A DNA stretch of 55,885 nt from a bacterium (GTDB lineage Bacteria > UBA8248), in contig JAJEJD010000001.1 in assembly GCA_022828125.1 (NCBI GenBank), positions 1 through 55,885 of the forward strand. Direction: 5' to 3'. The notes beneath the pieces are model-generated. The model was not told the DNA's origin. It worked only from the letters and a program-made list of their open reading frames with translations, and searched no databases. The position numbers and the translations under genes are program-made. Each line of letters starts with the position of its first letter. Position 1 is the first letter of the stretch. This document shows, in pieces, positions 3,933 to 52,726 of this stretch.

Positions 3933-4076
3933 AAAGCAACCCCCCCTACCCCCCCTTGTCAGGGGGGTATAAAAAGACGACGCCCGCCGCCAATAAACGG
4001 GCTTTTTCTGCCCCCTGACAAAGGGGTTTTGCTTTTCTTGCCCCCCTGACAAGGGGGGGTAGGGGGGGTTGCTTTT
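3933..4076 (+). repeat. MITE-like inverted-repeat element, copy A (with nested half-copy)
   Basis: The left arm starts AAAGCAACCCCCCCTACC and runs into TTGTCAGGGGGGTATAAAAA. The right arm CCCCCTGACAAGGGGGGG...GGTTGCTTTT is its reverse complement over about 35 bases. Compared with copies B and C, the centre carries an extra CCCCCTGACAAAGGGG segment (about 4010-4026), which looks like a second partial right arm. It has no coding capacity. It lies right after mnmG and could form a very long hairpin. Confidence 0.8.
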
Positions 4077-4247
4077 AAGGAATTTCGCTTTCAAGGGGGT
4101 GGCCATTGCCCTCTCAAGGGCTTTTTCAACAACCCCTGCAATCCGGCGTATTTCTAAGCAAGTCTGTAGGGACAGGTCGCGACCTTGGCCCGTTCACAAG
4201 AACGGCCCACTACCAAAGAGCATTCCTCCCGTCGCTAACCCCCCCAT

Positions 4248-4263
4248 TGTTCCACGTGGAACA
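4248..4263. promoter_or_regulatory. parS centromere site 1
   Basis: TGTTCCACGTGGAACA is a perfect 16-base palindrome that differs from the widely conserved chromosomal parS consensus TGTTTCACGTGAAACA at one symmetric pair. It lies 120 bases upstream of parA and is expected to be bound and spread from by ParB, the product of the second gene downstream. Confidence 0.93.
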
Positions 4264-4290
4264 TTCTCTCCCTGGATTTGCCGGAAATTT

Positions 4291-4306
4291 TGTTCCACGT
4301 GAAACA
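4291..4306. promoter_or_regulatory. parS centromere site 2
   Basis: TGTTCCACGTGAAACA matches the parS consensus at 15 of 16 positions. It starts 43 bases after the start of site 1, about four helical turns, so both face the same side of the DNA. With parA and parB immediately downstream this forms a complete ParABS locus. The sites may also let ParB autoregulate the operon. Confidence 0.93.
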
Positions 4307-4382
4307 TCCGGTTGTGTTTTGTGGGGCGGTGTGAGAATCTTTGCTAATCGCAATCCGTTTTCACCCGCCCTGAAACAACAAT

Positions 4383-5228
4383 ATGGACATCACACCCGGA
4401 TCGACCATCTCCCCGAGCGTTCCCGACGCTGTCGCAAGCGAAGGCCCGTGCACGATCGTGGCCGTCGTGAACCAGAAAGGCGGTGTCGGCAAGACGACGA
4501 CGGCCGTCAACCTCGCGGCCTGCCTCGCCGTGGCGGATCAGCCGACGCTGTTGGTCGACATGGATCCGCAATCGAATGCGACGAGTAATTTCGGTTTATT
4601 TTCGCCATCTTCTTCACTCTACAGGGCGCTCGTTCTGGGCGATACGCTGAACGATGAATCCTTGTATGATACTGAAATTAAATGTTTAAGCGTTTTGCCC
4701 TCCTCCATCGACCTGGCGGGTGCGGAAGTGGAGATAGCCGATTTGCCGCAAAGAGAGAGCCGCTTGCGAAACGTTATCGAACCGCTCAGGAGCCGGTTCC
4801 GTTATATCCTCATCGACTGCCCGCCCTCTCTGGGTTTTCTCACCTTGAACGGCTTGCGGGCGGCGGACGAGGTGCTCATCCCCATTCAGGCGGAGTATTT
4901 CGCATTGGAGGGGCTGGCCCGGCTCATGAAAACGGTGGAGCGGATACGCGGGAGCGTTCATCCCGGTCTCAGAATAGGCGGAATCCTGCTCACCATGTAT
5001 GATTCGAGAACGAACCTCTCGCGTCAGGTGAACGAGGACTTGCGCTCCCATCTGCCGGATTTGACCTACAGGGCCGTGATTCCCAGGAACGTGCGCCTCG
5101 CCGAGGCGCCGAGCCACGGGAAGCCGGTGATCACCTACGACATCTCCTCGCCGGGCGCACAGGCGTATCTCGCGCTGGCGGGCGAGTTCATCACGCGCTC
5201 GAAGGAAAGGATGAAAAACCCGACATGA
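4383..5228 (+). CDS. parA: Chromosome-partitioning ATPase ParA (Soj)
   Basis: 281 aa. This is a ParA/MinD-superfamily ATPase that segregates ParB-parS complexes along the nucleoid. The deviant Walker A motif KGGVGKTT is at residues 32-39, followed by the LLVDMDPQ segment (A') and LIDCPPSLGFLT (Walker B region). About 22 extra residues precede the usual start and no strong ribosome-binding site stands before ATG 4383, so the true start is uncertain, but no later ATG is suitable. It overlaps parB by four bases (ATGA), indicating one operon. Confidence 0.95.
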   Translation: MDITPGSTISPSVPDAVASEGPCTIVAVVNQKGGVGKTTTAVNLAACLAVADQPTLLVDMDPQSNATSNFGLFSPSSSLYRALVLGDTLNDESLYDTEIKCLSVLPSSIDLAGAEVEIADLPQRESRLRNVIEPLRSRFRYILIDCPPSLGFLTLNGLRAADEVLIPIQAEYFALEGLARLMKTVERIRGSVHPGLRIGGILLTMYDSRTNLSRQVNEDLRSHLPDLTYRAVIPRNVRLAEAPSHGKPVITYDISSPGAQAYLALAGEFITRSKERMKNPT

Positions 5229-6151
5229 CGACCGTGAGGAAAAAAGTGCTCGGACGGGGCCTGGACGCGCTCCTGGCCTCCCATGATGCGCAAGAGCCCG
5301 CACCGGCGGCGCTGGGTGTTCCGGGAACCGCCGCCGAAGACGGGGGCATTCTGATGCGGCTTTCTCCTGACCGCCTCGCCCCCGGCGTTCATCAGCCGCG
5401 CGTCGATTTCGACGAGGAAGACCTGGCCGAACTGGCCGAATCCGTGAAGCGCCACGGGGTGATCCAGCCTCTTCTTATCCGGCGCGCCCCGGGCGGGGGG
5501 TATGAGATCGTGGCCGGGGAGCGGCGCTGGCGGGCCGCGCGCCTGGCGGAAGTCGATGAGGTTCCCGCCATCCTGGTCGACGCGGGCGGGGATGAGGCTT
5601 TGGAGCTCGCCATCGTCGAGAACGTGCAGCGCGCGGATTTGAATCCCATGGAAGAGGCGGCCGCGTACGCGAGCATGATGGAGCGCCTGGGCCTCACGCA
5701 GGAAGAGACGGCCTCCCGCGTGGGCAAGGAACGCTCCACGGTCGCGAACTACGTCCGCCTGCTCAACCTGCCCGCCTCGGTTCAGGAGAGCGTCGCCGCG
5801 GGACTCCTCTCCATGGGACACGCCAGGGCGCTTCTTTCCTTGCGCACCGAAGAAGAGATGGCGAGCCACGCCAGCGCCGCCGTCGAGAAGAGACTCTCCG
5901 TGCGCCAACTCGAGACGCGCGTGAGAAAAACGCTTGAGGGGAAAAACGAGGCGAAGGAAACCTTCCGCCGACCCGTTCCACAGAACGGGCCCTCGGGGCC
6001 GCAGGCGCTTTATCTCAGGGAAGCGGCGGAGCGGCTCAGAAGCGCGCTGGGAACGAAAGTCGCGATTTCAGGAGACGAGGAGAGCGGAAAGATAGAAATA
6101 GAGTATTATACGAGGGATACGCTCGAGGGGTTGCTCCAGCGGCTTTGTTAG
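5225..6151 (+). CDS. parB: Chromosome-partitioning protein ParB (Spo0J)
   Basis: 308 aa, binds parS and spreads along DNA. The family's N-terminal ParA-stimulating segment LGRGLDALL is at residues 9-17. The ParB/sulfiredoxin fold follows, with the GERRWRAA box of the CTP-binding site and ENVQRADLNPMEEA. A helix-turn-helix (QEETASRVGKERSTVANYVRLL) and a C-terminal dimerisation part complete it. The ATG overlaps the parA stop, so translation is probably coupled. The two parS sites upstream fit this function. Confidence 0.96.
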   Translation: MTTVRKKVLGRGLDALLASHDAQEPAPAALGVPGTAAEDGGILMRLSPDRLAPGVHQPRVDFDEEDLAELAESVKRHGVIQPLLIRRAPGGGYEIVAGERRWRAARLAEVDEVPAILVDAGGDEALELAIVENVQRADLNPMEEAAAYASMMERLGLTQEETASRVGKERSTVANYVRLLNLPASVQESVAAGLLSMGHARALLSLRTEEEMASHASAAVEKRLSVRQLETRVRKTLEGKNEAKETFRRPVPQNGPSGPQALYLREAAERLRSALGTKVAISGDEESGKIEIEYYTRDTLEGLLQRLC

Positions 6152-6190
6152 CCCTGGCTTTTCTATCGGGATTCATGCGAGGATCGATGA

Positions 6191-6631
6191 ATGGCGAAAA
6201 ACTACGAGAAAAGCATACGCGCTTTCCTGGGAGAGGGCACCGAGTTCAAGGGCGTCATTACCTTCGAGGGAACCGTGCGCGTGGATGGCGTCCTCGAAGG
6301 GGAGGTCATCACGGATGACACCTTCATCATCGGCACCGCGGCGAACGTGAAGGCCGAGGTCAAGGCCGGCGTCGTCATCGTGATGGGCCGGATGGAGGGC
6401 AAGATAGAGGCCAAGGAAAAGTGCGAGATCAGGGTCGGCTCCCGCGTGAGCGGGGAGGTTTTCACGCCGAGCATATACATCGAAGAAGGGGCGGTGTTCG
6501 AGGGGACCTGCCACATGACGGGCGACGGAGGGGGCTCGGTGACAAGCGCCGAGGAAGCGAAGGAGGCTCCTGGGGCCGGGGAGGATTCAGGCGAGAGCGA
6601 ACCCGCGGCATCCACTCCCGGGGCGGACTGA
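6191..6631 (+). CDS. Bactofilin (polymer-forming cytoskeletal protein)
   Basis: 146 aa. A central right-handed beta-helix of short repeats (FKGVITFEGTVRVDGVLEGEV, then ADVKAEV-like, GRMEGKI and GSRVSGEV turns, residues ~15-100) is typical of bactofilins (DUF583). An acidic, Gly/Ser/Glu-rich disordered tail follows. Bactofilins form nucleotide-independent filaments on the membrane. It starts 39 bases after parB. In Myxococcus bactofilins are known to position the ParABS machinery, so the neighbourhood may be functional; that link here is inference. Confidence 0.92.
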   Translation: MAKNYEKSIRAFLGEGTEFKGVITFEGTVRVDGVLEGEVITDDTFIIGTAANVKAEVKAGVVIVMGRMEGKIEAKEKCEIRVGSRVSGEVFTPSIYIEEGAVFEGTCHMTGDGGGSVTSAEEAKEAPGAGEDSGESEPAASTPGAD

Positions 6632-6669
6632 GCGCGCGCTTCGGGACGATTCGGGGAAGGCGGCCGGCT

Positions 6670-6939
6670 ATGGAGAATAATCGATCGGCTCTGGGCATAT
6701 TCGCCGGGTTCGTTTTCTGGCTGGGCATCGCCTACTACTTTTATCAACGCGATTTCACTGGAGCGCTCTGGTTCGTCGCGGCCTTCGGGTTGGTATACGG
6801 CGCCTATCGTTTGATCGCCCACCTTCTGGCCTCGAACCCGAAGCCCCGCCACATGCAGGATGAAGGCGTCGACCCGCCGCCCCGCTCGGATCTGCCCGAC
6901 TATGATTTCGAGGATGCGAAGCCGAAAGATTTCGAGTGA
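6670..6939 (+). CDS. Small inner-membrane protein, function unknown
   Basis: 89 aa. I do not recognise a named family. Two hydrophobic segments are visible, about residues 7-25 (LGIFAGFVFWLGIAYYFY) and 31-51 (ALWFVAAFGLVYGAYRLIAHLL), followed by a hydrophilic Pro/Asp/Lys tail predicted to be soluble. ATG 6670 is preceded by a GGGGAAGG stretch about 16 bases upstream, so the initiation site is weakly supported. It starts 38 bases after the bactofilin and may be the last gene of the parAB-bactofilin transcription unit. Confidence 0.65.
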   Translation: MENNRSALGIFAGFVFWLGIAYYFYQRDFTGALWFVAAFGLVYGAYRLIAHLLASNPKPRHMQDEGVDPPPRSDLPDYDFEDAKPKDFE

Positions 6940-7605
6940 TGTGGTTCGGGGTTCACTTTTCCTCGCACAAGCGGATCGGGCATTTGAGGAATTCTTCGAT
7001 CATCGGAAGAAAAGTTGTCGATGAAATCATTCCCCCTGAAGGGCTTGTTGAAAAACCCCCTGAGAGGGTGATGGCAACCCCCTTGAATGGGAAATCCCAT
7101 AAAACCAACCCCCCCTACCCCCCCTTGTCAGGGGGGTATAAAAAGGCGATGCGTTCCCGCCGGGCTGAGAGGGCTTTGCTTTTTCTTGCCCCCCTGACAT
7201 GGGGGGGTAGGGGGGGTTGGTTTTCGACGGGGGAGGTCGGGGGTTCGCGCGAAAGCGGCCTTCCCGCCAAAGGCAACATCCCCCGGGAAGGATTTTTTCA
7301 ACATCCCCCTCAAGGGAGTGTTGAAAAAGCCTGGTCTGCCCCTCCGCAAACCGCCAACGCCTTTTTCCTCACCCTGAGTAGCCGCCGAAGAGCCTGTCCT
7401 GAGCTTGTCGAAGGGCGGCGTATCGAAGGGCGCGGGGAGTCGAACGCCTCGCACCGGGCGAGAGGGCGTCCTTCGATACGCGGCTCCACCGCTACTCAGG
7501 ATGAGGCGGAGAAGATTTTTCAACAGGCCCCTCAAGAGGGGAGTAATATAAATTGCTATGGTGTTAGTCCTTCCCGGTTTTCCCGGCGTGATCATTAAGG
7601 CCCAA
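6940..7605. repeat. Repeat island between the par operon and the dsrE-like gene
   Basis: About 660 bases without a credible gene. In order: a TTGTTGAAAAACCCC motif (7046-), MITE-like copy B (7101-7224), a palindromic pair TTTTTTCAACATCCCCC...GGGAGTGTTGAAAAA (7292-7329), an inverted pair of CCTCA(C/T)CCTGAGTA repeats (7367-7506) that encloses the widespread CCTGAGCTTGTCGAAGG repeat (near 7398) and two CGTATCGAAGG/CCTTCGATACG arms, then TTTTTCAACAGGCCCCTC (7518-). An open frame spanning 6936-7598 consists of these repeats and I do not consider it a gene. Confidence 0.8.
7101..7224 (+). repeat. MITE-like inverted-repeat element, copy B (complete)
   Basis: The ends are AAAACCAACCCCCCCTACC and, as reverse complement, GGTAGGGGGGGTTGGTTTT. 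Inner arms are TTGTCAGGGGGG and CCCCCCTGACATGGGGGG. The core, starting TATAAAAAGGCGATGCG and ending GGGCTTTGCTTTTTCTTG, matches copy C closely. This is the clearest full-length example, 124 bp with arms of about 36 bp. No target-site duplication is obvious. Confidence 0.82.
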
Positions 7606-7980
7606 ATGTCCCAGTTCGTCATATACGCCCACAGCGGCGAGCCCGAACGCATCCACCAGATAGCCACCCTCGCGGCGAGCGCCGCCGCGAACGGGGATGA
7701 GGTGCACGTCATCCTCTTCTTTGGTGCGCTCAGGCGGTTCGTGGACGACGATCTCGATAAGGCGGCCCCGGCGGGGGAGGATGCGCGCGGTGCGCACTCG
7801 GCGGAGGAGCTCATCGAGGCCGCCAGAAGGCTCGGCAAGCTAAGGGTCTACGCCTGCGCCGCGCAGCCCAAGCTCCTGGGCCTGGCGCCCGAGGACGTGG
7901 CGGACGTCGTGGACGAGGTAATCAGCTTGCCTGAGTTCATGAGGAAAACCAAAGACGCGGAGACCAAGCTGTATATCTGA
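7606..7980 (+). CDS. DsrE/DsrF-like family protein
   Basis: 124 aa, small alpha/beta protein. The start SQFVIYAHSGEPERIHQIATLAASAAANGDEVHVILFF fits the DsrE-like fold (first strand, helix, second strand). A conserved-type Cys sits in the VYACAAQPKLLGL segment, the usual site of sulfur-relay chemistry in DsrE/TusD relatives. The frame is open upstream to 7558, but the fold begins at ATG 7606, with AAGG a few bases before it. It stands alone between a repeat island and the amidohydrolase gene, and no dsr or tus partners are present, so its role is unknown. Confidence 0.75.
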   Translation: MSQFVIYAHSGEPERIHQIATLAASAAANGDEVHVILFFGALRRFVDDDLDKAAPAGEDARGAHSAEELIEAARRLGKLRVYACAAQPKLLGLAPEDVADVVDEVISLPEFMRKTKDAETKLYI

Positions 7981-8116
7981 GTGACTCTTTGCGCTTTTCC
8001 CGCGCCGGTTTTCTCGAATCGCCCATAATGTGCTAGACAAAGGTGAGCGCGCGGCGTTTCGTGCCGCGGGCGCAGGACTTTATGTATTTCTCATTCGATC
8101 TCGACGGGAAGGCGAC

Positions 8117-8977
8117 ATGAAATTTCTGGCGGCGGCGGCCCAGATAGGGCCCAGGCTCGGCAATCTCGAAGCGAATCGCGAATTGCTGGCGGAGGAGGTG
8201 AGAAAGGCCGAAGCGGAGGGAGTCGATCTCCTCGTCTTTCCCGAACTCTCGCTCACGGGGTATTTTTTGAAGGACATGGTCCCCGAGGTGGCCATCCGGC
8301 GCAACACCGCGCCGATGAAGGAAATCGCCGCACTCAGCAAGAACCTCTCTCTCGTGGTGGGCTTCGTCGAGGAATCGCGCAGGCACGGGTTCTTCAATTC
8401 GGCCGCCTATTTCGAAAACGGCGAGCTTCTCCACGTGCACCGCAAGGTCTATCTGCCGACCTACGGATTATTCGATGAGAACCGCTACGTGGGCCGGGGG
8501 GACAAGGTGCGCGCTTTCGACACTCGCTTCGGGCGCGCGGCCATCCTCATCTGCGAGGACGCCTGGCACCCGAGCCTGGCGGGGGTCGCCTCGCTCGACG
8601 GCGCCGATTTGCTCATCGTTCCCTCGGCGAGTCCCGCGCGCGGCGTCAGCAAGGCGAACGGCGAGGGCGGCCTCGCGATACAGCGCGTCTGGCAGTCGCT
8701 CACGAGAACCTACGCCGCGGCCTACAACCAGCACGTGGTCTTCAGCAACCGGGTGGGATACGAGGACGGCATCAACTTCTGGGGGGGGTCCGAGATACTC
8801 GCGCCCAGCGGAGAGCCCCTCGCCCAGGCCGAGCGCGCCGGCGAGGAGTTGCTCATATCGGAAGTCGACACGGCGAACGTGCGCCGCGCACGCATCGCAT
8901 CCCCCACGCTCCGGGATGAGGACCTGCATCTCACCCTTCGCGAACTCCGCCGCATCCAGCGCTCGCGGGAGGCGTGA
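8117..8977 (+). CDS. Carbon-nitrogen hydrolase (nitrilase superfamily), possibly a glutaminase for NAD synthesis
   Basis: 286 aa. The full nitrilase triad is present: Glu43 in FPELSLTGY, Lys110 in HRKVYLPTYGLFDE, Cys146 in LICEDAWHP. The LPTYGLFDE wording after the Lys resembles the glutaminase half of glutamine-dependent NAD synthetases more than ureidopropionases. ATG 8117 has GGGAAGG four bases upstream; the frame is open earlier but without homology. A stand-alone NadE lacking this domain is encoded 3.2 kb downstream, so this protein may supply its ammonia. That pairing is inference; another amidase substrate is possible. Confidence 0.85.
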   Translation: MKFLAAAAQIGPRLGNLEANRELLAEEVRKAEAEGVDLLVFPELSLTGYFLKDMVPEVAIRRNTAPMKEIAALSKNLSLVVGFVEESRRHGFFNSAAYFENGELLHVHRKVYLPTYGLFDENRYVGRGDKVRAFDTRFGRAAILICEDAWHPSLAGVASLDGADLLIVPSASPARGVSKANGEGGLAIQRVWQSLTRTYAAAYNQHVVFSNRVGYEDGINFWGGSEILAPSGEPLAQAERAGEELLISEVDTANVRRARIASPTLRDEDLHLTLRELRRIQRSREA

Positions 8978-9047
8978 GTTTTTTTGGAGCGACGACTCGC
9001 CTGACACGCTTGGCCCCGATTTTTGTGTTTGATTGTTATTGCGGTTT

Positions 9048-9124
9048 TGTAGGGGCGGACCGATGTGTCCGCCCATGTAGAATCGGGAGGACACGCAGGT
9101 CAGACATATATGTCTGACCCTGCG
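9048..9124. repeat. Two palindromic repeats upstream of the metallo-hydrolase gene
   Basis: GTAGGGGCGGACCGATGTGT is followed by CCGCCC (inverted GGGCGGAC/GTCCGCCC), then CAGGTCAGACATATATGTC followed by TGACCCTG, a near-perfect palindrome centred near 9109. Both resemble the variable-core palindromes at 10160, 36407, 36717 and 48377. They could act as terminators after the amidohydrolase gene, but no T tract follows. Confidence 0.6.
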
Positions 9125-9188
9125 CAGAGGTCGTATCCCTGCAGCGAACGACAATTCCCATAGACTCCATCATCCACCGGAGGACGCC

Positions 9189-10082
9189 ATGAAGCCATTA
9201 TCCAGAACATCATGCCTCTTCACACTTGCCGCTTTCGTGTTCTTCCATCTGGCGCCCCTGCAAATCGCGCAAGCCGAGATCAAGACGACCCACGTCGCAG
9301 GCAACGTGCATATGCTGACAGGCCGTGGGGGGAACATCGGCGTATCCGCGGGTGAAGACGGCGTCTTGATGATCGACGACAAGTTCGCTCCCCTGGCGGA
9401 CGCCATTAAAGCGGCGCTTAGAGGCCTTAGCCCGAGGCCCCTCGCGTTCGTCGTGAACACGCACTGGCACGGCGATCATACGGGGGCGAACGAGATTTTC
9501 GGGGCGGATGCGCACATCATCTCGCACGCCAACGTCCGGAAGCGTCTCGCAGTCACGAGCTACGTGCTGGGCCGGGCCGTAAAGCCGAAGGCGAAGGTGG
9601 GCCTTCCCGTCATCACGTTCGATAATTCCATATCCGTTCATTTCAACGGCGAGGAGATTCGCATGGTCCACTACCCGAACGGCCATACGGACGGCGACAG
9701 CGTGATTTTCTTCCCGAAATCGAACGTCGTTCATACGGGCGACCTGCTCTTCTCGGGTATGTTTCCGTTCGTGGACCTGAAAAACGGAGGCGACGTGGAA
9801 AGCTTCACGAAAAACGTCGCCACGCTCATCAAGCAAATACCGAAAGACGCCAAAATCATCCCCGGCCACGGCCCGCTCTCGGGCATCGAGGAGCTCAAAG
9901 CCTCCCATTCGATGCTCGTGGAGACAACGCGGATCGTGCGCGACCGGATGAAGGCGGGAAAAACGCTCGCCCAGATTCAGGCGGCGGGATTACCCGGGAA
10001 GTACGCGGCCTGGAGCTGGCGCTTCATCTCGACGGAGCGCTGGATAGGGACGATCTTCGAGAGCCTGGGCGGAAAAAGATAG
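9189..10082 (+). CDS. Exported metallo-beta-lactamase-fold hydrolase
   Basis: 297 aa. An N-terminal signal peptide (Lys/Arg start, hydrophobic residues ~9-26, AQA cleavage site near 29) sends it to the periplasm. The zinc motif HxHxDH is HWHGDH at residues 92-97. Further metal ligands are likely in VHYPNGHTDGD, the TGDLLFSG Asp and IIPGHGPLSG. The overall pattern resembles secreted MBL hydrolases often annotated as beta-lactamase-like or SoxH/quinoprotein-relay-related proteins; the substrate is unknown. A GGAGG lies seven bases before the ATG. It is a single-gene unit flanked by palindromic repeats. Confidence 0.88.
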   Translation: MKPLSRTSCLFTLAAFVFFHLAPLQIAQAEIKTTHVAGNVHMLTGRGGNIGVSAGEDGVLMIDDKFAPLADAIKAALRGLSPRPLAFVVNTHWHGDHTGANEIFGADAHIISHANVRKRLAVTSYVLGRAVKPKAKVGLPVITFDNSISVHFNGEEIRMVHYPNGHTDGDSVIFFPKSNVVHTGDLLFSGMFPFVDLKNGGDVESFTKNVATLIKQIPKDAKIIPGHGPLSGIEELKASHSMLVETTRIVRDRMKAGKTLAQIQAAGLPGKYAAWSWRFISTERWIGTIFESLGGKR

Positions 10083-10268
10083 GGACAAACTCCCCGTGGT
10101 TGTACCTTGCCAGGACAGGCGCAGTGGTCTTTCCCTGCGGCCAGGGCGCGCCCTCCTCGTAGGGACCGTTCGCGAACGGCCCCTACAGGGATCCTGCGAA
10201 TCGAGATGGACGGACAAATAAGTCCGCCCCTGCGAAGGCGGAATCCCTCCCACCTCAGCCGGGTCTGA
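10083..10268. repeat. Repeat stretch downstream of the metallo-hydrolase gene
   Basis: It contains AGGGACAAACTCCCCGTGG...GTTGTACCTTGCCAGGACAG, GTAGGGACCGTTCGCGAACG followed by GCCCCTAC (10159-10188, a near-perfect palindrome), and GGCGGACAAATAAGTCCGCC (10211-10229, allowing one base). These are members of the GTAGGG...CCCTAC family with different cores. They lie between the 3' ends of two convergent genes, where they could serve as bidirectional terminators. Confidence 0.6.
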
Positions 10269-10751
10269 TTATCTGGTCCGCTCGATGAGTTCTCGCAAGG
10301 CCATGCGGCTTTCCGCCTGCCCCTCGATGAATTCACGGAAAGAGGCGCGGCTCTCGCCCTGCTCTTTGATGAGTTCGCGCAGGGAAGCGCGGTTCTCGGC
10401 GTTTTCGTTAATGAGTTCACGCAGGGAAGCCATCGACTCATCATGCTTGCGCTCGGAGTCGCTCGTGGATTCGTCGTGCCTGCGTTCTAAAGCGGTCATG
10501 AACTCATTATGCTTGCGTTCAGATTCTGTCATTACTTCGTTGTGCCTGCGTTCTAATGTGGCCATGAACTCATTATGCCTGCGCTCTGATTCGGTCGTGG
10601 CCTCTGCGTGCTTGCGCTCTGAATCCGCCGCGCGCATCTCCGCGCCCTTGGCCATCACGCGTATGCCGTGGTAGATGAGGCCCAGGCCGCCGAAGGCGGC
10701 GATGAGGTTCAGATATGCGGCGAGGAGACTCCATTGCTCAAAGGTCGTCAT
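10269..10751 (-). CDS. Membrane-anchored repeat protein with hendecad coiled coil
   Basis: 160 aa, no family recognised. One hydrophobic segment (residues ~8-32, LLAAYLNLIAAFGGLGLIYHGI) is followed by a charged rod. Residues 44-109 are six 11-residue repeats of the form (S/L)ER(K/R)H(N/D)E(F/S)M(T/A)x. Residues 110-151 are three 14-residue repeats of the form LRELIxExxExRAS, and a fourth begins. Eleven-residue periodicity is characteristic of right-handed coiled coils. The DNA repeats are 33 and 42 bases long, so copy number could vary. The N-terminus probably sits in the inner membrane with the rod in the cytoplasm or periplasm. Function unknown. Confidence 0.75.
   Translation of the reverse strand: MTTFEQWSLLAAYLNLIAAFGGLGLIYHGIRVMAKGAEMRAADSERKHAEATTESERRHNEFMATLERRHNEVMTESERKHNEFMTALERRHDESTSDSERKHDESMASLRELINENAENRASLRELIKEQGESRASFREFIEGQAESRMALRELIERTR
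10299..10622 (-). repeat. Tandem coding repeats (6 x 33 bp then 3 x 42 bp)
   Basis: Within the coiled-coil gene, 10425-10622 holds six 33-base units and 10299-10424 three 42-base units. Adjacent units share phrases such as TCATTATGCTTGCGTTC and TCGTTGTGCCTGCGTTC on the plus strand. The repeats are diverged by substitutions but not by indels, keeping the frame. Confidence 0.75.
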
Positions 10752-10864
10752 CTTTATTATCCTTTGAGTTGGGTCCCCAGGCGGTCTTGGTTCATGCCAT
10801 TATAGCCGAACGACAACCGTCCGCAATTACGGGGGGAGTTGTCCCTCCCCGGCCGGAACGGACC

Positions 10865-11644
10865 TCACGCATCCCGCCATTCTGTTTTTGAGGGCAGCGC
10901 GCCGCCGCGGAAGTTGAAGAGCACGGCGGGAGCGTCGCTCGCGTTGTGCACGGTGTGCCATGCGCCGCCCGGCGTGTGGACGAGATCGCCCGCCGACGCC
11001 TCGATGGTCTCGTCTTCGATGATGAAGTTCATGCGCCCTTCCAGCACGAGCGTCGCCTCGTCCATCGCGTTCAGATGCCGGTGGACGTGCGGCCTGCCGC
11101 CCGGCGGGAACGAGACGATCTGGCACTCGAGGTACTCGGTGGCGATGGCGCGCGCGAGGCCTTTCTCTTTTACGGAGCCTGCGTCGAACGGCCCCGTTAG
11201 CCCGGCGACGTCGCCCTTGATGTAGGGCACGGGAGGCGCCAGGGGATTTTCCACCGACTCAGGGTCGGGACTGGGGGGCGGGTCGCCTTCGGGCAGCAGG
11301 AAGCCGGAAGGCATCCGGCCGCCTCTGAAGTTGAACTCTATCAGTTCGTCGCCGCTTATGTTCTTCATGTTGTGCATCGAACCGCGCGGGTTCAGGAGAA
11401 CGTCGCCCTTCGCGACTTCGAAGGTCTGCCCGTTGTTGAGGATGAGCCCGCGACCGTTATAGATGAGGTAGCCCTCGTCCATCTCCTCGTGGTGCGCGTG
11501 ATAGGGCGGATAGGCGCCCGGCGGAAGGACGATGACCCGCACTTCCAGGTTCGGCGTGTTGACGAGGATGGGCGAGCCTTTCCGCAGCGCCTCCTCCTGG
11601 TCGTAGACCCATTTCAAGTCTTCGATGTTTCCCACGTACGGCAT
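10865..11644 (-). CDS. Bicupin domain protein
   Basis: 259 aa. There are two cupin folds. The first has HAHHEEMDEGYLIYNGRG (metal-binding His/His/Glu region, residues ~50-67) and a second motif PRGSMHNMKN. The second has PHVHRHLNAMDEATLVLEGR and PGGAWHTVHN. Both motif pairs retain the metal-binding His residues, so both halves may bind metal. Proteins of this sort are often dioxygenases or isomerases of small organic acids, but no substrate can be named. I use ATG 11644 because GGAG stands five bases upstream, although the frame is open to 11680. Confidence 0.82.
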   Translation of the reverse strand: MPYVGNIEDLKWVYDQEEALRKGSPILVNTPNLEVRVIVLPPGAYPPYHAHHEEMDEGYLIYNGRGLILNNGQTFEVAKGDVLLNPRGSMHNMKNISGDELIEFNFRGGRMPSGFLLPEGDPPPSPDPESVENPLAPPVPYIKGDVAGLTGPFDAGSVKEKGLARAIATEYLECQIVSFPPGGRPHVHRHLNAMDEATLVLEGRMNFIIEDETIEASAGDLVHTPGGAWHTVHNASDAPAVLFNFRGGALPSKTEWRDA

Positions 11645-12139
11645 AAGGACTCCAGATAAAGGGGTTGTTGAAAAAGTCATTCTTTCGAGATTCAGTGTAT
11701 ATTACCTGCCGGCGAGAGAGAAGAATCACCCCCCTTGATGGCTGTTGAAAAAGCCCTATCCACCTCATCCTGAGTAGGCGCGCAAGCGCCGTATCGAAGG
11801 ATGCCCTCTCGACTGGAAAGGCAACCCCCCCTACCCCCCCTTGTCAGGGGGGTATAAAAAGGCGATGCGCCTTCGCCGGGCTGAGGAGGTTTTGCTTTTT
11901 TTTGCCCCCTGACAAGGGGGGGTAGGGGGGGTTGCCTTTGTCCCCTGGCATTGCAGGCTTTTTCACCAGCCCCGTGAGCGGTGGATGGGGGAAGGGCATC
12001 CCCGGGCCTCGCGCGAGGTCAATGGGTTCCGGCCGTTGCGCGCCGCACAGGCGGGAGGCATGATAGGGGCGGAGTTTCACTGGAAGATTTCTCGCAGCGG
12101 AGAATCGGTTTGCTGGACGACGGCATCATAGAAGGCGCG
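11645..12139. repeat. Repeat island between divergent bicupin and nadE genes
   Basis: It contains GGGGTTGTTGAAAAAG (11662-), GGCTGTTGAAAAAGCC (11741-), a single CCTCATCCTGAGTAGGCG...GCCGTATCGAAGG repeat (11763-11800), MITE-like copy C (11818-11939) and GGCTTTTTCACCAGCCCC (11951-). The bicupin and nadE are divergent, so any promoters lie among these repeats, which makes the island potentially regulatory. I see no strong -35/-10 pair. Confidence 0.75.
11818..11939 (+). repeat. MITE-like inverted-repeat element, copy C (complete)
   Basis: The ends are AAGGCAACCCCCCCTACC and GGGTAGGGGGGGTTGCCTT. Inner arms are CCTTGTCAGGGGGG and CCCCTGACAAGGGGGG. The core begins TATAAAAAGGCGATGCGCC and contains GCCGGGCTGAGGAGG, nearly the same as copy B. 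Terminal bases differ between copies (GGCAACC here, ACCAACC in B, AGCAACC in A), with both ends of one copy changing together. Such paired change points to base-pairing constraint or gene conversion between arms. Confidence 0.82.
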
Positions 12140-12961
12140 ATGACGGAACTGGAGCTCGACGGCGACCTTGCCGTCGGCTTGCTCGCAGGCTTCATTCGCG
12201 ATGAGGTTTCGAAAGTGGGCGTGAAAAAGCTCGTCCTGGGCCTTTCGGGCGGGATCGACAGCGCGCTCTCCGCCTTTCTGGCCGCGCGCGCCATGGGGCC
12301 AGAGAACGTCACCGGCGTCATCATGCCCTACCGCCTCTCGAACCCCCAGAGCGAGGCCGATGCGCGCGCCGTGGCCGAGAAGAGCAACATCCATATCGAA
12401 GTGGTGGACATCTCCCCCCAGGTGGACGCCTATTACGAGCGCTTCCCGGACGCGGACAACCTCCGCCGGGGCAACAAGATGGCGCGCGAGCGGATGACGA
12501 TTCTCTATGATCACTCGGCCTTCCTCGGCGCGTTGGTGGTGGGCACGAGCAACAAGACCGAACTCCTGCTCGGCTACGGGACGCTGTTCGGGGACATGGC
12601 GAGCGCGGTAAACCCCATCGGCGATCTGTTCAAGACGCAGGTGCGCCAGCTCTCGCGCCACGTCGGCGTGCCCGCGCAGGTGGTGGAGAAGGCCCCGAGT
12701 GCTGATTTGTGGGTGGGCCAGACCGACGAGCAGGAACTCGGCTACACCTACGAGGTGGCCGACGCCGTCCTGTACCGGATGATCGACTGCCGCTACACGC
12801 GCGAGGAACTGCTCGGCGAGGGCTTCCCGCCAGAGCTCGTGGACGGCATCCAGCGGCTGGTGCAGCGCAGCCAGTACAAAAGACGCCTGCCGCTCATCGC
12901 CAAGCTCAGCCAGCGCACCATCGACCGCGATTTCCGCTACGCACGCGACTGGGGGCTGTAA
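12140..12961 (+). CDS. nadE: NAD+ synthetase, ammonia-type domain
   Basis: 273 aa. It adenylates and amidates nicotinic acid adenine dinucleotide to NAD+. The PP-loop SGGIDSA is at residues 36-42. [29 protein letters not shown] and [18 protein letters not shown] are family signatures. There is no glutaminase domain, so it uses free ammonia or a separate subunit; the nitrilase-type protein at 8117 is a candidate. Start choice is uncertain: ATG 12140 has GAAGG four bases upstream, whereas TTG 12110 has a better spaced CGGAGA and would add ten residues. Confidence 0.93.
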
Positions 12962-13612: not shown

Positions 13613-13960
13613 GTGGAACGGCCCTTGCCGGAGAACCGGGTGCTTCACAAAGTGCCCCTACAACACCCTTCCGGAGAGATTGCAGCACCGTCATTCCGGC
13701 GAAAGCCGGAATCCATTTGCGGATGCGGGTGAATATACGGTGGCGTTTCCTTCCCCGCCGATGCGCGGGAACCCTGAAGAAAGGCAAAAGGCGTAAAAAT
13801 GGATTCCGGCTTTCGCCGGAATGACGTCAAACTCTGGATCGGGCTTTTCAACAGCCCCGCCCAGGGGGCCGGTCTGCTCGCTCATCGGCCGCCGGACTTC
13901 GATATCCCGGCGCCCGACGGCATTTCCGGAAACAGCACCCCCCGATGGCGTTTCCACCAA
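13613..13960. repeat. REP-type inverted pair and TTTTCAACA motif
   Basis: GTCATTCCGGCGAAAGCCGG (13690-) and its reverse complement CCGGCTTTCGCCGGAATGAC (13806-13825) face each other across about 85 bases. Each unit is itself a hairpin (TTCCGGC-GAAA-GCCGGAA). This REP sequence is very common in unrelated bacterial genomes. A GGGCTTTTCAACAGCCCCGCC motif follows (13842-). No RAYT transposase is encoded in the window and no gene is credible here. Confidence 0.8.
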
Positions 13961-24759: not shown

Positions 24760-24836
24760 GGCGGCCCCCGAAATCTCCCCGCGCGGATGAGCAGGCCCGC
24801 GCGGAGAGGTTCGTGCGTGTCACCGGGATGTGGGGA

Positions 24837-25826
24837 CTACATGAGTTCTTTCGGAATCTTTTTTCCGGCTTCTTTCCAGAACCGGACAGCCCCTTTGTGA
24901 AGCGGCGCGTTGATGAGCTTGAGGCCGTTTTTGAGCGAGAGTTCCTTCGCCACCTTGCCTGCTGCGGAGAGGATGTATTTGCGTCCTTTCTCGGAGTACA
25001 TGGCTTTCATGATGTTGTAGATCAGATCGGCGGAAACCTGGCTCCCCGCGATCATGACGGTGCCCGTGCCGAAGGTCGGGGTATCCACGTTCACGTTCGG
25101 GTAGACGCCCGCGGGAATCATGGTGGGTCCGAAGAAGGGAAATTTCTTGTAGAAGCCTGACTTGCGAGCCGGGGCGTCCATGTTGATGAAGCGGATTTTC
25201 ATCATGGTGGCCGTATCGCGGATCATGGCATTGCCGAGACCGGGATGCCAGTTGTAACCGGCGATCTTGCCGTTTCGCATGGCCTCGGGGCTTTTACGGC
25301 CCAGATACACGGGCTTGAACGTGCCCCAGATGCCCAGGTGCTTGAGGAGCGCTGTGAGGTTCTTCGCCGAGCCGGAACCCGGACCGCCCATCGAGATGGT
25401 CTTTCCCTTCAGGTCTTCGATGTTCTTGATGTCGCTGTTCGCCGGCACCAGCAGATGGCCCACTGAACCGAAAAGGTACGTCATGGTTCGCATATTCTTC
25501 TGGGGTTTCTTGAAATGCGCCTTGCCCCGGTAGCCCAAAAAGGAATCACTCGAGAACGTCAGGGCGATTTCCACGGAGCCCGAGTTGACCGCCCGCACGT
25601 TTTCCGAAGAGCCGGTGGAGGACTCGGAGGAAACCTGAACTCCCTTCAACTCTTTCGTCAGATAGACGGCGTATGCGCTGGTCCATCGGTTGTAGGCGCC
25701 GCGAATCTGGCCGCCTTTCATGGTGATGCGTTGCTGGGCTGAGGCGTCCGGCGGGACTGCACCGAAATGTGCGGCGAGCAGGATTGCGGCTGCGGTCAGA
25801 AATGATGCCCATCGTGTTCTGGTCAT
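24837..25826 (-). CDS. TAXI-family TRAP solute-binding protein
   Basis: 329 aa. Signal peptide: TRTRW start, hydrophobic core AAAILLAAHFGAV, cleavage after ASA near residue 30. The mature part has the TAXI-family layout: ITMKGGQIRGAYNRW near the start, VSSESSTGSSENVRAVNSGSVEIAL, and GKTISMGGPGSGSAKN. It captures a small carboxylate for the fused permease downstream. I take ATG 25826, preceded by AAAAGGAGAG; the frame is open to 25886 without a second site. The TAXI family has no membrane homologue confusion, so the class assignment is firm though the ligand is not. Confidence 0.92.
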   Translation of the reverse strand: MTRTRWASFLTAAAILLAAHFGAVPPDASAQQRITMKGGQIRGAYNRWTSAYAVYLTKELKGVQVSSESSTGSSENVRAVNSGSVEIALTFSSDSFLGYRGKAHFKKPQKNMRTMTYLFGSVGHLLVPANSDIKNIEDLKGKTISMGGPGSGSAKNLTALLKHLGIWGTFKPVYLGRKSPEAMRNGKIAGYNWHPGLGNAMIRDTATMMKIRFINMDAPARKSGFYKKFPFFGPTMIPAGVYPNVNVDTPTFGTGTVMIAGSQVSADLIYNIMKAMYSEKGRKYILSAAGKVAKELSLKNGLKLINAPLHKGAVRFWKEAGKKIPKELM

Positions 25827-25960
25827 GGTTTCGCTCTCCTTTTGAAGGATGAATGGGATGAAAACTCCTGTTGCCGAAAACAACACACACTCGAACGCCG
25901 GGCGCTCGAGAAACTAATATCAAGCCATAAGACACTTGTACGCAGGGCGCGCCTGCTAAA

Positions 25961-26002: not shown

Positions 26003-26032
26003 CCACTACCTTATCTTACAAGGAGCCATATT

Positions 26033-36383: not shown

Positions 36384-36803
36384 CTCCTCCTTGAAGGGAG
36401 GCCGTAGGGGCGGCCCCCCGTGGCCGCCCTTGTCATCTGGAAAACCACCCCCTACCTCCCTTGTCGGGGTTGTTGAAAAACCTCTCCCCCTCACCCTGAG
36501 TAGCGGCGAAGCCGCGTATCGAAGGGCGCATGTCCGTCCCTCGATACGGCGCGCAGGCGCGCCTACTCGGGATGAAGGAGAGTTTGTGGTTTGATGTAGT
36601 GTAGGGACAACCCTCCGTGGTTGTCCTTTGTCGGTTGTGGGACAGGCCCCCGTGCCTGTCCGTCTTGGACAATTACCGAATCCATCACCACGATTTCAAG
36701 CGGAGACATCGCATCGGGCGGGCACAGAGGCCCGCCCCTACGATAACGAAACCCGCAATCGCTCCTTCATTGGACGAGTAAGGTTCTCGCTAATCAGGGT
36801 TTT
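36384..36803. repeat. Repeat island downstream of the metalloprotease gene
   Basis: In order: GTAGGGGCGGCCCCCCGTGG...CCGCCC (36407-), a MITE fragment AACCACCCCCTACCTCCC (36441-36461), GGGGTTGTTGAAAAACC (36466-), an inverted pair of CCTGAGTAG/CGTATCGAAGG repeats (36488-36577), GTAGGGACAACCCTCCGTGG with GTTGTCC then GGGACAGGCCCCCGTGCCTG (36602-36660), a GGCGGGCACAGAGGCCCGCC palindrome (36717-36737) and TTTTTCAACAATCC (36798-). It separates two convergent genes. No gene is credible in it. Confidence 0.75.
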
Positions 36804-44210: not shown

Positions 44211-44248
44211 TCACAATCGAGATTCACTCGACGCTATAGAAGCACCCC

Positions 44249-45571: not shown

Positions 45572-45963
45572 GTCGGACTCCTTGTTCATTGAGATGGCGG
45601 GATTATAGACGCACGGGGGGCGAACCGAACAGCGGCGGGCGATTTCCTTTCACAGGCTCCTCATGTAGGGCTGTTGAAAAAGGCCCCTTGTCAGAGGACA
45701 AAGGCAACCCCCCCTACCCCCCCCTTGTCAGGGGGGTAAGAAAAAACAAAAGCCACTCTGCCGTCGGCGGGCGTCGCCTTTTTATACCCCCCTGACAAGG
45801 GGGGGTTGGTTTTCAAGCCGAGAGGGGCGTCCCCTCTATCCCCTGAAAGGAGGCTTTTTCAACAGACCTCAAGGAGAGAGCCATTTCAAAAGCCTGTGTC
45901 GAATGAGAAATCCATTTCCTGTTTGCGGGTGACTTTACCAACGGCCCCATGTAGGCTTTCTCC
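45572..45963. repeat. Repeat island in the divergent gap upstream of ligA
   Basis: It holds GGGCTGTTGAAAAAGGCCCC (45669-), MITE-like copy D (45700-45813) and AGGCTTTTTCAACAGACC (45852-). The LVIVD gene (minus) and ligA (plus) diverge from here, so promoters must lie among the repeats or in the remaining ~90 bases before 45964. I see no convincing hexamer pair. Confidence 0.7.
45700..45813 (-). repeat. MITE-like inverted-repeat element, copy D (inverted orientation)
   Basis: The arms are AAAGGCAACCCCCCCTACC with TTGTCAGGGGGGTAAGAAAA on the left and CCCCCCTGACAAGGGGGGG then TTGGTTTT on the right. The TATAAAAAGGCGACGCC core motif is on the right here, as its reverse complement, so the element is flipped relative to A-C and E. 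The right arm lacks the TAGGGGGG segment that the complete copies have. Confidence 0.78.
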
Positions 45964-46242: not shown

Positions 46243-46243
46243 G

Positions 46244-47071: not shown

Positions 47072-47095
47072 GCGATTACGAAGGAGGATGAAGGA

Positions 47096-48085: not shown

Positions 48086-48745
48086 GCCGCGGGCCCATGA
48101 AAGACCCCGCACCGGGGGCATCGTCTTGCCCCCCTTGTCAGGAGAGCTTTCTTTTGTCTCTCTCGTCGGGGAGGCTTTCCGCGAAGGCGGAACCTTTGCG
48201 CAAGCACCCAACCCCCTCATCCTGAGTAGGCGCGTCAGCGCCGTATCGAAGGAGGGGGGAACGAACATCTCCCGACCGGTGCGGGGCCTCGCCCTTCGAT
48301 ACGCGGCTTCGCCGCTACTCAGGGTGAGGTCAATATGGCGGCTGCGGGTTTCGTCCTTGCCCCGCCGCACCGGAGTGTGTAGGGGTCGCATATATGCGAC
48401 CCGACCTTTTTGCCTTCCAACGACGGGCCGCATATATGCGGCCCCTACACTCCCTTCGCCAAGGCGGAATCCCATTGCCGTCATTCCGGTATTGCATGGC
48501 TTTTTCAACAACCCCGGCAAAGGGGGGAGGGGGGGGGTCGGCAGGGAGACGTGTTTTCCCGTAGGGACAACCCTCTGTGGTTGTCCTTCGTTAGGACAGG
48601 CACGGAGGCCTGTCCCTACGGTGAATAATTCGATGATCGGGGTTACCTCCCTCCCCAGGGGGACTTTTTCAACAACCCCCTCAAGGGGGGAGTGAAATCC
48701 AATATGCTCCTTCTGTAGGCTTTTTCAACACGCGCCGCGCCGGAG
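48086..48745. repeat. Large repeat island between convergent MDR and TPP-enzyme genes
   Basis: It contains a MITE arm fragment GCCCCCCTTGTCAGGAG (48127-), a CCTGAGTAG/CGTATCGAAGG inverted pair (48215-48329), GTAGGGGTCGCATATATGCG with GACC (48377-48401) facing GGGCCGCATATATGCGGCC (48425-48443), TCATTCCGG (48481-), GGCTTTTTCAACAACCCCGG (48498-), GTAGGGACAACCCTCTGTGG / GGACAGGCACGGAGGCCTG (48561-48620), GGACTTTTTCAACAACCCCC (48660-) and GGCTTTTTCAACACG (48718-). No gene is credible. It has the greatest density of repeats in the window. Confidence 0.8.
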
Positions 48746-50401: not shown

Positions 50402-50597
50402 GTGGCTTCTCCTATCGATTCGGTGGATTTGCTGTTTCCGGTGGGTGGAGTCTCTCATAAGTTTCCGAATAAGGAAATTTCCGCGTACACGAGCGCGCTC
50501 GGGCGGTTTTCGCTACAATGGCTGCCTTCGACCCGACAATGATTTCAAGGAGCGATGGAGCCGCTCCCGCACCTTTTCAGAAAAAGGAAGCCCGGCC

Positions 50598-51365
50598 ATG
50601 GCGAACCGAGAAGCAACCACGTATGAAGTCAAGAACCACGTCGCGTATCTCACCCTGAACCGGCCCGAGAAGAAAAACGCCATCAACTACGCCATGCGCA
50701 AGGAGGTGCAGGACGCCTACGTCGACATCAAGCACAACCCGGACGTCTGGGTGGCCGTCATCACGGCGGCGGGGGACGTTTTCTGCTCGGGCAAGGACAT
50801 CGTGGAGAAGATGCCCGAGGACGACGGGCAGGTGATGTCGAACGACGAACTTTATCTGTATCTGCGTTATCTCTACAAGCCCGTCATCTGCGCCATCAAC
50901 GGCCCCTGCCTCGCCCAGGGGGCGGGCTTTGCGCTGAACTCCGACATCCTCATCTTCTCGGAGCACGGCTCCATGGGCTGGCCGCAGGTGCTCCGGGGCA
51001 TCTCCTCGGTGAGCGGCCCCGCCATGTGCGCGCACGCGATTCCCTGGACGCAGGCGATGAGCTACCTCATGCGCGGGAAGTTCATCCCCGCCGATGAGTG
51101 CCTGCGTTTGGGCATCGCCACCGAGGTGGTGCCGCACGAGGAACTCCTCCCGACGGCTGTGCGCTACGCGCACGAAATCCTGGAAGCCGCGCCCATGGCG
51201 GTCTGCGCCATCAAGGAGGCGGCGCGCCGGGGCGAGGACCTGGGCTACCGCGACAGGGTCTACATGTCGCGCGATGTGGCGGACCGTATCCTGCACACGG
51301 AGGATTCCAAGGAGGGGATCCTCGCCTTCCGCGAGAAGAGAAAGCCCGAGTGGCGGGGCAGATAG
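50598..51365 (+). CDS. Enoyl-CoA hydratase/isomerase (crotonase) family protein
   Basis: 255 aa. The crotonase fold signatures are clear: VAYLTLNRPEKKNAINYAMR, DVFCSGKDI (oxyanion-hole strand) and AINGPCLAQGAGFALNSDILI. At the first catalytic Glu position the sequence reads MGWPQVLRG; many hydratases have xxPExxxG there, so this member has Gln in place of Glu and may be an isomerase, hydrolase or other crotonase. ATG 50598 follows AAAAAGGAAG by eight bases. A D-2-hydroxyacid dehydrogenase follows 62 bases downstream. Confidence 0.9.
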   Translation: MANREATTYEVKNHVAYLTLNRPEKKNAINYAMRKEVQDAYVDIKHNPDVWVAVITAAGDVFCSGKDIVEKMPEDDGQVMSNDELYLYLRYLYKPVICAINGPCLAQGAGFALNSDILIFSEHGSMGWPQVLRGISSVSGPAMCAHAIPWTQAMSYLMRGKFIPADECLRLGIATEVVPHEELLPTAVRYAHEILEAAPMAVCAIKEAARRGEDLGYRDRVYMSRDVADRILHTEDSKEGILAFREKRKPEWRGR

Positions 51366-51427
51366 GCTGTAGTTTCCCTTGTTTTTCTCAATACATGCAA
51401 GAACGAATGAAATGGAGATGAAAGCGA

Positions 51428-52435
51428 ATGAGCGATAAACCCGTCGTCTGGGTGGGAACCCCCTTTATCCTGAATTTCGATGACCCGATGGAGATGTTCC
51501 AGCCCCTGGTGGACGAGGGGCTTGAGGTGCGCCTCGACGAGTGCCGGGGCTACATGCCCGAGGAAGACGTCATCGCGGCCCTGCCGGGCGTCACCGCCGT
51601 CATCGCGGGGGCGGAACCTTATACGGCAGGCGTGATGGATGGCGCGCCCGGGGTGAAAATCATCGTGCGCGCCGGCGTGGGCCTGAACAACGTCGACATA
51701 CCGGCGGCCACCGAGCGCGGCATACTGGTCGCGAACTCGGCGGGACAGAACTCCCAATCCGTGGCGGAGCATCTCTTTGGCCTCTTGCTCTGCGCCGTCC
51801 GGCGCATCGGCTGGCTGGACACGGAAATCAGAAAGGGCCTCTGGCGGGAGATTCAGCCGCCCATGCGTCCGCTCAACGGGATGACGATGGGGATACTGGG
51901 ATTCGGGAACATCGGCAAGCAGGTGGCGAAACGGGCCGTCGCCTTCGACATGAAGGTGATCGCCCACGACATCGTGCAAGACGAGGAGACGGCGAATGCG
52001 CTGGGCGTGCGCTTCGTGAGCCTGGAAGAGCTTGCGAGGGAATCGGACTACCTGACCTGCCATGTGCCGCTGACGCCCGAGACGACGCACATCATAGGCC
52101 GCGAGATTTTAAGCCTCATGAAGCCCGACGCCTACGTCTTCAACACCTCGCGGGGTCCCGTATTCGATTTGGATGCTGTTACGGAGGCTCTCCAAAACGG
52201 CGTCATCCGCGGCGCGGGAATCGACGTGTTCCCCGAGGAGCCGCCCGATTACGCGCACCCCATATTCACGCTCGAGAACGCCGTGCTCGCCCCCCACCTC
52301 GGCGGCCGCGGCGAGGATGCGATTCGCAACACGCTGCGCCACACGACCGAGTGCGTCCTCGCCTACTTCCGGGGCGAGCGGCCGTCCACCCTCGTGAACC
52401 CCGAAGCATATGAGGTGCTGGCAAGGGGGAGGTGA
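51428..52435 (+). CDS. D-isomer-specific 2-hydroxyacid dehydrogenase (2 of 2)
   Basis: 335 aa. The NAD-binding GFGNIGKQ lies near residue 158, catalytic Arg in NTSRGPVFDLD, Glu in VFPEEPPD and His in APHLGGRGED. The N-terminal domain has the early GVGLNNVDIPAATERGI signature of phosphoglycerate-dehydrogenase-like members. It may reduce a 2-oxo acid produced by the neighbouring TPP or aldolase enzymes. GGAGATGAAAGCG precedes the ATG. Its end lies just before a MITE-like element (copy E). Confidence 0.93.
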   Translation: MSDKPVVWVGTPFILNFDDPMEMFQPLVDEGLEVRLDECRGYMPEEDVIAALPGVTAVIAGAEPYTAGVMDGAPGVKIIVRAGVGLNNVDIPAATERGILVANSAGQNSQSVAEHLFGLLLCAVRRIGWLDTEIRKGLWREIQPPMRPLNGMTMGILGFGNIGKQVAKRAVAFDMKVIAHDIVQDEETANALGVRFVSLEELARESDYLTCHVPLTPETTHIIGREILSLMKPDAYVFNTSRGPVFDLDAVTEALQNGVIRGAGIDVFPEEPPDYAHPIFTLENAVLAPHLGGRGEDAIRNTLRHTTECVLAYFRGERPSTLVNPEAYEVLARGR

Positions 52436-52726
52436 GTTTGAATGCAGGGGACTCATACGGGGTTGTTGAATCAGCCCCCCTTGTCAGGGGGGTATAAAAA
52501 GGCGACGCGCCCCCTCCGAGTCGAGGGGGTTTTGCTTTTTCTTACCCCCCTGACAAGGGGGGTAGGGGGGGTTGGTTTTCAAGACGACAGCCTGCGCCTC
52601 CGCCCGGGTTCGGGTTTTGGCCGTCATTACGACCAAGGATGACTTTTGCAACAATCCCCTCAAGGGGGGGAGTGTTTTTCTTCTCCTTGGTCGAGCAGGA
52701 CCCTTGAGGAGTTTTTCAGCAACCCG
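52436..52726. repeat. Repeat island between convergent dehydrogenase and ytoQ genes
   Basis: GGGGTTGTTGAATCAGCCCC (52459-), MITE-like copy E (52472-52579), GGGCCTTTTGCAACAATCCCC-like motif (52639-) followed by CTCAAGGGGGGGAG, and TTTTTCAGCAACCCGC (52711-) lie here. The genes converge, so no promoters are expected. Confidence 0.7.
52472..52579 (+). repeat. MITE-like inverted-repeat element, copy E (5'-truncated)
   Basis: It starts directly with CAGCCCCCCTTGTCAGGGGG and lacks the outer AACCCCCCCTACC of the left arm. The core TATAAAAAGGCGACGCG and GGGGGTTTTGCTTTTTCTTA and the right arm CCCCCCTGACAAGGGGGG-TAGGGGGG-GTTGGTTTT are intact. A TTGTTGAATCAG sequence abuts the truncated end. Confidence 0.8.

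Follow-up and report, generated by a model that had tools for sequence, protein, structure and literature searches.

The window analysed here is an entire contig of 55,885 nucleotides (JAJEJD010000001.1, C12) from the 3.92-Mb, 32-contig genome of a bacterium of the UBA8248 lineage (assembly GCA_022828125.1, hereafter G000). Between its genes lie five hairpins, copies A to E, which a sequence-only reading had described as resembling miniature inverted-repeat transposable elements (MITEs). The comparison with sister genomes suggests that these hairpins are the conserved core, about 115 bp long, of MITEs derived from insertion sequences (IS) of the IS1182 family, which would be moved in trans, would target palindromes and would have their arm modules exchanged in place. 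We assign this reading a probability of about 0.8. The names H for the core, T for the terminal ends and M1 to M9 for the arm modules were coined in this analysis.

Alignment of the five copies bears out the positions and long inverted arms given by the sequence-only reading, as well as the inversion of copy D, the left truncation of copy E and a nested extra piece in copy A. The arms are 52, 47, 45, 38 and 27 nt long, with a complementarity of 82-93%. The motif CCCCCCCTTGTCAGGGGGG occurs 11 times in the window at up to three mismatches, against a mean of 0.01 over 100 shuffles. All five copies fold as DNA hairpins with z-scores of -5.2 to -10.8; for each copy, 200 shuffled versions all folded less well. 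Pfam matches on the neighbouring genes place copies C and D in divergent gaps, the sequence-only reading having proposed such gaps for two of the five, copy E in a convergent gap and copy A between co-directional genes. The gap of copy B is apparently co-directional; the nearest downstream open reading frame (ORF) has only a sub-threshold DsrE-like match. A search of the window against Rfam at gathering scores returned one tRNA and one group II intron only, and no known RNA at the hairpins.

The hairpins are not confined to the window. A core pattern with up to three mismatches detected 212 arm sites in G000 and none with the reversed control; since an element may be hit in each of its arms, these sites represent fewer elements, at least 40. 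With a stricter pattern, H was detected in seven of 98 genomes, which are all seven searched members of the window's genus, and in none of 11 genomes from other genera of the same family. A pattern scan of named genomes placed the element in records of metagenome-assembled genomes (MAGs) from at least six assemblies; the titles among the matches listed comprise four Nitrospinota/Nitrospinae, one Candidatus Binatia and JAJDYR01, titled 'bacterium'. The copy on the contig titled Candidatus Binatia (L043, positions 24001-26770 of JAJDXX010000119.1) reflects either horizontal transfer or binning contamination.

Terminal ends, probable parent element and targets

In many copies, H and its arm modules are bracketed by the outer ends T, GGGGNTGTTGAAAAAG...CTTTTTCAACANCCCC. 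Exact T ends number 108, 134, 81 and 160 in G000, G001, G002 and G003, respectively, and none was found in eight genomes of other genera. Orthologous sites of the sister genomes, which are about 82-93% identical there, show where the units end. The block around copy C is absent from G002 and G005, and a different T block stands at this site in G004. Block E is absent from G002, where 1 bp separates the anchors, and so is the repeat cluster at 48090-48738. A comparison of 200 kb between G000 and G003 (161 kb aligned, mean identity 91%) revealed a block of about 295 bp in G003, flanked by AAGG on either side, at a place that in G000 has the sequence GCGTAAGGCTATT. Its order is T-M1-H-M4-T, followed by a short extra stretch that closes with another T-like end. 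Two further blocks found only in G003 have four of five border bases matching (read by eye). As it is entire blocks from T to T that come and go between orthologous sites, we place the ends of the mobile unit at T.

Target duplications were scored in 97 T-bracketed blocks, 64 of them with H-type arms. Exact duplications of at least 4 bp flank 11 blocks (shuffled mean 1.6, maximum 6), nine of which are exactly 5 bp long. When one base of offset is allowed, 14 blocks are duplicated against a shuffled mean of 3.5 and a maximum of 10.

A search for the transposase domain PF01609 in four genomes gave six matches, three in G002 and three in G003, and none in G001. Three of them come from a T-ended IS, one as L161 and two as partial copies, L160 and L162; at L157, L158 and L159 no T ends were seen. 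The complete element in G002 (L161/L163) is 1514 bp long, has an open frame of 485 amino acids and carries the ends GGGGCTGTTGAAAAACCC. It sits in the centre of an H arm, between CCCCCCTGACAA and GACAAGGGGGGG, and is flanked by a 5-bp duplication, GACAA. Its transposase matches the NCBIfam model IS1182 (NF033551) with 355 bits at a cut-off of 270, and DUF772, DDE_Tnp_1 and DDE_Tnp_1_6 are also above their cut-offs. A copy in G005 (57% identity) contains one internal TAG, has T ends and is bordered by ATCGT on both sides, so that both IS copies recovered with two ends show 5-bp duplications. The G002 protein was searched in 18 genomes: all seven of the genus gave matches, many of them fragments or at contig ends, and the 11 others gave one weak match. 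T matches the first 15 bp or so of the IS1182-type copies in G002, G003 and G005. By eye, the 29 long T-bracketed ORF intervals listed resembled host genes or repeat translations, and no transposase was recognised among them.

The mobile, MITE-like origin proposed by the sequence-only reading is supported by genome-wide copies, empty sites, target duplications above chance and an autonomous IS with matching ends in a sister genome; copies across the assembly, target duplications and a transposase with matching ends were among the checks it had suggested. Its view of the hairpin as the unit needs correction, as the unit exceeds the hairpin and ends at T.

The insertion sites of both kinds of element appear to share a preference. 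A C-run/G-run palindrome borders 36 of 98 T blocks but only 49 of 17,075 random positions. For the IS ends, 21 of the loci around 24 transposase matches were inspected (L168, L173 and L181 were left out); L166 and L177 have no T end and L169/L175 were counted as one, which gives 18 distinct ends. By eye, 14 of these lie in a C-run/G-run palindrome, the ends at L164, L167, L174 and L180 being outside. The palindromes concerned are H arms or a ACTCCCCCCTTGAGGGGGGAGT-like repeat. Since IS ends and T blocks border such palindromes, including the arms of H itself, nested and broken copies are to be expected.

Arm modules, turnover and alternative explanations

Outside the GGTTG of the arms the sequence is often non-unique and falls into the recurrent modules M1 to M9, many of which end in T, CTTTTTCAACANCCCC. 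In 149 distinct H copies, left and right modules combine in many ways, with a tendency towards one side of the M1/M2/M6 type and one of the M3/M4/M5/M8/M9 type; 34 left and 22 right flanks fit none of the nine modules. T lies within 150 bp of H on the left in 85 of the 149 copies and on the right in 88.

The outer bases of the arms track the flanking module. The sequence-only reading had taken them to change in pairs, as a sign of constraint or conversion between the arms, and this did not hold: 135 of the 149 elements carry CC, GT or CT immediately outside the GGTTG of each arm, and the arms agree in 38 of them, against about 47 expected if they were independent. The commonest combination is the unpaired GT/CC, seen in 62 of the tabulated elements. 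The same shortfall shows in an alignment of 104 elements, where the two columns next to CAACC on its outer side match in 41 and 46 elements, below the 50.7 and 55.8 of the shuffles. Covariation of the outer bases was therefore rejected, as the arms match below expectation and the bases belong to the modules. Paired-looking arm changes in such repeats can reflect the flanking module and not stem constraint, which may serve as a warning. Covariation was detected at one stem-centre position, the middle base of TTG[T/A]C, paired in 80 of 104 elements against 63.9 expected (p_more 0.0005); a count over 127 elements gives 103 paired at this base (Fisher p 1.9e-8). Subfamilies, conversion or constraint could each explain this.

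For the analysis of turnover, 55 H copies of G000 with enough flank were queried against G003, about 91% identical, and 17 could be paired. Two were dropped, L132.11117, whose G003 interval holds only the H of a neighbour, and L133.8889, where several H made the pairing unsure; copy D, missed by the finder because of its shortened right arm, was added by eye, giving 16 sites. Both 60-bp flanks and the core orientation are kept at seven of the 16. The other nine differ, eight in a flank and six in core orientation. The lowest flank identity counted as kept was 0.77, against a background with a median of 0.45, a 95th percentile of 0.70 and a 99th of 0.82; C15.174501, with an ambiguous core orientation, was not scored as flipped. 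At the site of copy D, G003 has a T end at the same left position, another left module and the opposite core orientation. In one extra site (L132 vs L079) the entire interior between the T-like ends differs. A further G003 site (L089, 2340-4700), orthologous to about 105.8 kb of contig C5 in G000, carries an additional 2 kb or so next to the element.

These observations can be combined in one scheme. The non-autonomous unit would consist of the terminal repeat T (GGGGNTGTTGAAAAAG), an arm module, H, a second arm module and T. An IS1182-family DDE transposase would recognise T, move such units in trans and make a target duplication of 4-5 bp. Both IS and T-ended units would favour the centre of C-run/G-run palindromes (e.g. 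CCCCCCTTGTCAGGGGGG), the two palindromes in the arms of H among them, so that copies would become nested, split or truncated. Later, the arm modules would be replaced and the core turned round in place; we infer that the many copies most likely recombine or convert one another wherever they share T and H sequence. We favour reading the T-ended units as MITEs derived from IS1182 that have taken an unusual, mosaic and self-targeting form.

Several points weigh against this scheme. Exact duplications of at least 4 bp are lacking in 86 of the 97 T blocks, and T lies within 150 bp on both sides of H in just 50 of the 149 copies. The G000 assembly contains no intact transposase: no PF01609 match was found in it, only two IS fragments. 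Beyond the first 15 bp or so, T and the IS ends diverge, T usually having G and the IS C. The border motif behind the 36 of 98 blocks was one-sided and chosen after the data had been seen, and a test for symmetric palindromes on T blocks was not significant (7 vs a shuffled-pair mean of 4.9, maximum 10); palindrome targeting therefore rests on one-sided borders and on the IS ends. Repeats may also be misjoined in MAG assemblies built from short reads, which could mimic module swaps or core inversion. Finally, two printed relatives in the IS1182 family leave 4 bp (ISPse1, PMC3281130) or none (IS1272), and here 5 bp are found. As the printed members of the IS1182 family differ among themselves, we do not consider the duplication length as defining.

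Assembly error or independent insertion at hot spots may lie behind the differences between orthologous sites. The latter has some claim, as a possible if not a likely account: different units would have inserted independently into the same palindrome, and no recombination would be needed. The preference for palindromes and the different T block at the site of copy C in G004 speak for this, but several sites agree in one module and its T end and differ on the other side or in core orientation.

We consider it quite unlikely that selection maintains the hairpins as exapted terminators of transcription in both directions and that their mobility is a thing of the past. Hairpins followed by a T-run with folds of -8 kcal/mol or below were found in 95 of 105 cores in forward and 50 of 105 in reverse direction (shuffled 71 and 20), and terminator-like sites occur in copies A, B and C (the scan covered 3601-12200). 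Against this stand the absence or exchange of copies at orthologous sites and the location of two of the five window copies in divergent gaps. As the fold enrichment exceeds the shuffled control just modestly, a strong terminator claim was dropped; the effect on transcription considered by the sequence-only reading is weakly suggested, and a terminator effect of the H cores is possible but unproven.

More doubtful still is the idea that mobility belongs to H (CAACCCCCCC...GGGGGGGTTG) itself, which would have entered older T-ended elements later, the flanking modules being the two halves of the target. It would account for the differing modules on the two sides of H, for outer bases that follow these modules and for G004, which has an H-type arm pair enclosing a T element in place of the usual core. 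However, the joined flanks of the 149 H copies gave 12 junction-spanning matches for seven copies, among which no clean version lacking H was seen by eye; the clean pairs of empty and occupied sites end at or near T and not at H, and no transposase with H ends was found.

An origin as repetitive extragenic palindromes (REP), bacterial interspersed mosaic elements (BIMEs) or REP doublets (REPINs) moved by a REP-associated tyrosine transposase (RAYT, of the Y1 HUH type) is highly improbable and was rejected: intergenic palindromes beside GTAG/CTAC, inverted pairs and high copy number recall such repeats, but in REP the tetranucleotide and hairpin stand in reverse order relative to H, target duplications and DDE-type ends are present here, and no proper Y1 transposase was detected in four genomes, G000 and G002 yielding a single weak partial match apiece to the domain Y1_Tnp (PF01797) and G001 and G003 no match, although G003 is the richest of the seven genomes in cores.

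The window feature by feature

Positions of the cores, blocks and fragments are compiled in the table. The sequence-only reading had listed two solo arm fragments. The one at 36441-36465 is indeed an H arm; a T end interrupts it at TTGTC, and the other half of the arm was not found beyond the next right T end at 36814. The one at 48128 is a degraded piece of an arm.

Features of the hairpin family in the window (positions 1 to 55,885)
Feature	Position	Strand	Remarks
Copy A, H core	3933..4076	+	extra inner palindromic piece
Copy A, right flank			module M2 up to T end at 4136; no left T end seen
Left border of block B	7036..7040		CTGAA; right counterpart CTCAA at 7309-7313, 4/5 matching
Copy B, whole unit	7041..7308	+	T - M2 - H - M5 - T
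Copy B, H core	7101..7224	+
Second T-bracketed block, without H	7314..7530		CTCAA on both sides; within CCCCCTCAA/CTCAAGAGGGGAG palindrome
Copy C, block from T to T	11661..11973	+	no clear target duplication
Copy C, H core	11817..11939	+
Broken H arm	36441..36466	+	T end starting at 36466 interrupts TTGTC
Copy D, block	45667..45869	-	T - M1 - H (core inverted) - M4 - T; no target duplication seen
Copy D, H core	45700..45813	-	core sequence on minus strand
Degraded arm fragment	48128..48146	+	3 mismatches; inside repeat cluster 48090-48738
Copy E, block	52459..52726	+	variant T end (GGGGTTGTTGAATCA) fused directly to truncated H (52475-52579)
Copy E, right side			module M3 followed by T-like ends (52658, 52726)

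Further repeats were observed in the window. At 11757-11800, 7330-7530 and 48180-48330, T-bracketed blocks are occupied by a third repeat (CCTGAGTAG...CGTATCGAAGG), in some cases together with H and in others without it. A separate family (CGTCATTCCGGCGAAAGCCGGAATCC), an inverted repeat of about 138 bp at 13689-13826, has many copies in sister genomes, mostly 86-95% identical. Other palindromes (GGGGTCGCATATATGCGACC; GTAGGGACAGGTCGCGACCTGTCCCTAC), at 48377-48450 and elsewhere, recur between genes in several of the genomes examined. Between copy A and parA/parB lie two palindromes at 4240-4315 (TGTTCCACGTGGAACA / TGTTCCACGTGAAACA), which we take to be parS-like; together with parA/parB and the neighbouring mnmE/mnmG they likely mark an origin-proximal partition region. 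The contig end (53987-55826) carries a group II intron domain match (Rfam RF02005) with a reverse transcriptase/maturase ORF downstream, and a tRNA-Ser at 53547 adjoins this region.

Related elements and significance

No description of this hairpin family was found in the literature on IS1182, MITEs and palindromic or hairpin targets, in a search that mostly did not cover subscription papers. The sequence-only reading knew of no named family like it; the family can now be tied to IS1182-derived MITEs. The closest parallel is seen in Methanosarcina acetivorans, where two MITEs of 160 and 169 bp, with 14 and 7 copies and inverted repeats of 25-26 bp, are tied to the IS1182-family element ISMac2 (PMC3852290). 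The elements described here differ from these in their much higher number of arm sites, in their mosaic build with arms that can be exchanged, in the long hairpin at their core and in duplications of mostly 5 bp, compared with 4 and 0 bp for the ISMac2 partners (as we interpret the columns of the table in that paper). Insertion into inverted-repeat hairpins is shared with IS1272/TnSha1, also of the IS1182 family, and palindrome targeting is cited for other members (PMC4923244). IS1272 is reported to make no target duplication and to delete part of its target (PMC4923244), whereas we observed 5-bp duplications at the palindrome centre.

Mosaic organisation has parallels in other groups. The neisserial intergenic mosaic elements (dRS3/RS, PMC3898611) likewise combine short repeats with inverted ends, varied modules, intergenic arrays and a role as integration targets. 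However, dRS3 is used by the integrase of a filamentous phage, and its consensus ATTCCC(N8)GGGAAT differs from T; the T ends are those of an IS and come with target duplications, and the units here have a hairpin core in common. The Chunjie MITE of Geobacter uraniireducens (PMC10969869) is also intergenic, 178-235 bp long and present in many partial copies; compared by description only, its account in the part available contains no module exchange or palindrome nesting. BIME and REPIN-RAYT systems (PMC3733652) resemble the present family as mosaic intergenic palindromes and possible IS targets, but no matching HUH transposase was found here, and the units are T-ended, with DDE-type ends and target duplications.

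An orphan-looking hairpin family is now linked to a specific transposase family and a target rule, and its sites provide natural replicates for measuring how bacterial intergenic mosaics are formed. We tentatively raise a stronger view, which we regard as rather unlikely at present: the T-bracketed islands may be cassette-exchange sites, in which the elements provide their own landing pads in the form of hairpin arms, and repeated recombination involving T and H exchanges the arm modules and inverts the core while the intergenic positions stay fixed. Such an intergenic repeat system, if it exists, would be self-targeting and combinatorial, and intergenic sequence, including terminator-like hairpins, would be rewired far faster than the surrounding genes. 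Should module swapping and core flipping be real, intergenic turnover in these genomes would be much faster than nucleotide divergence suggests.

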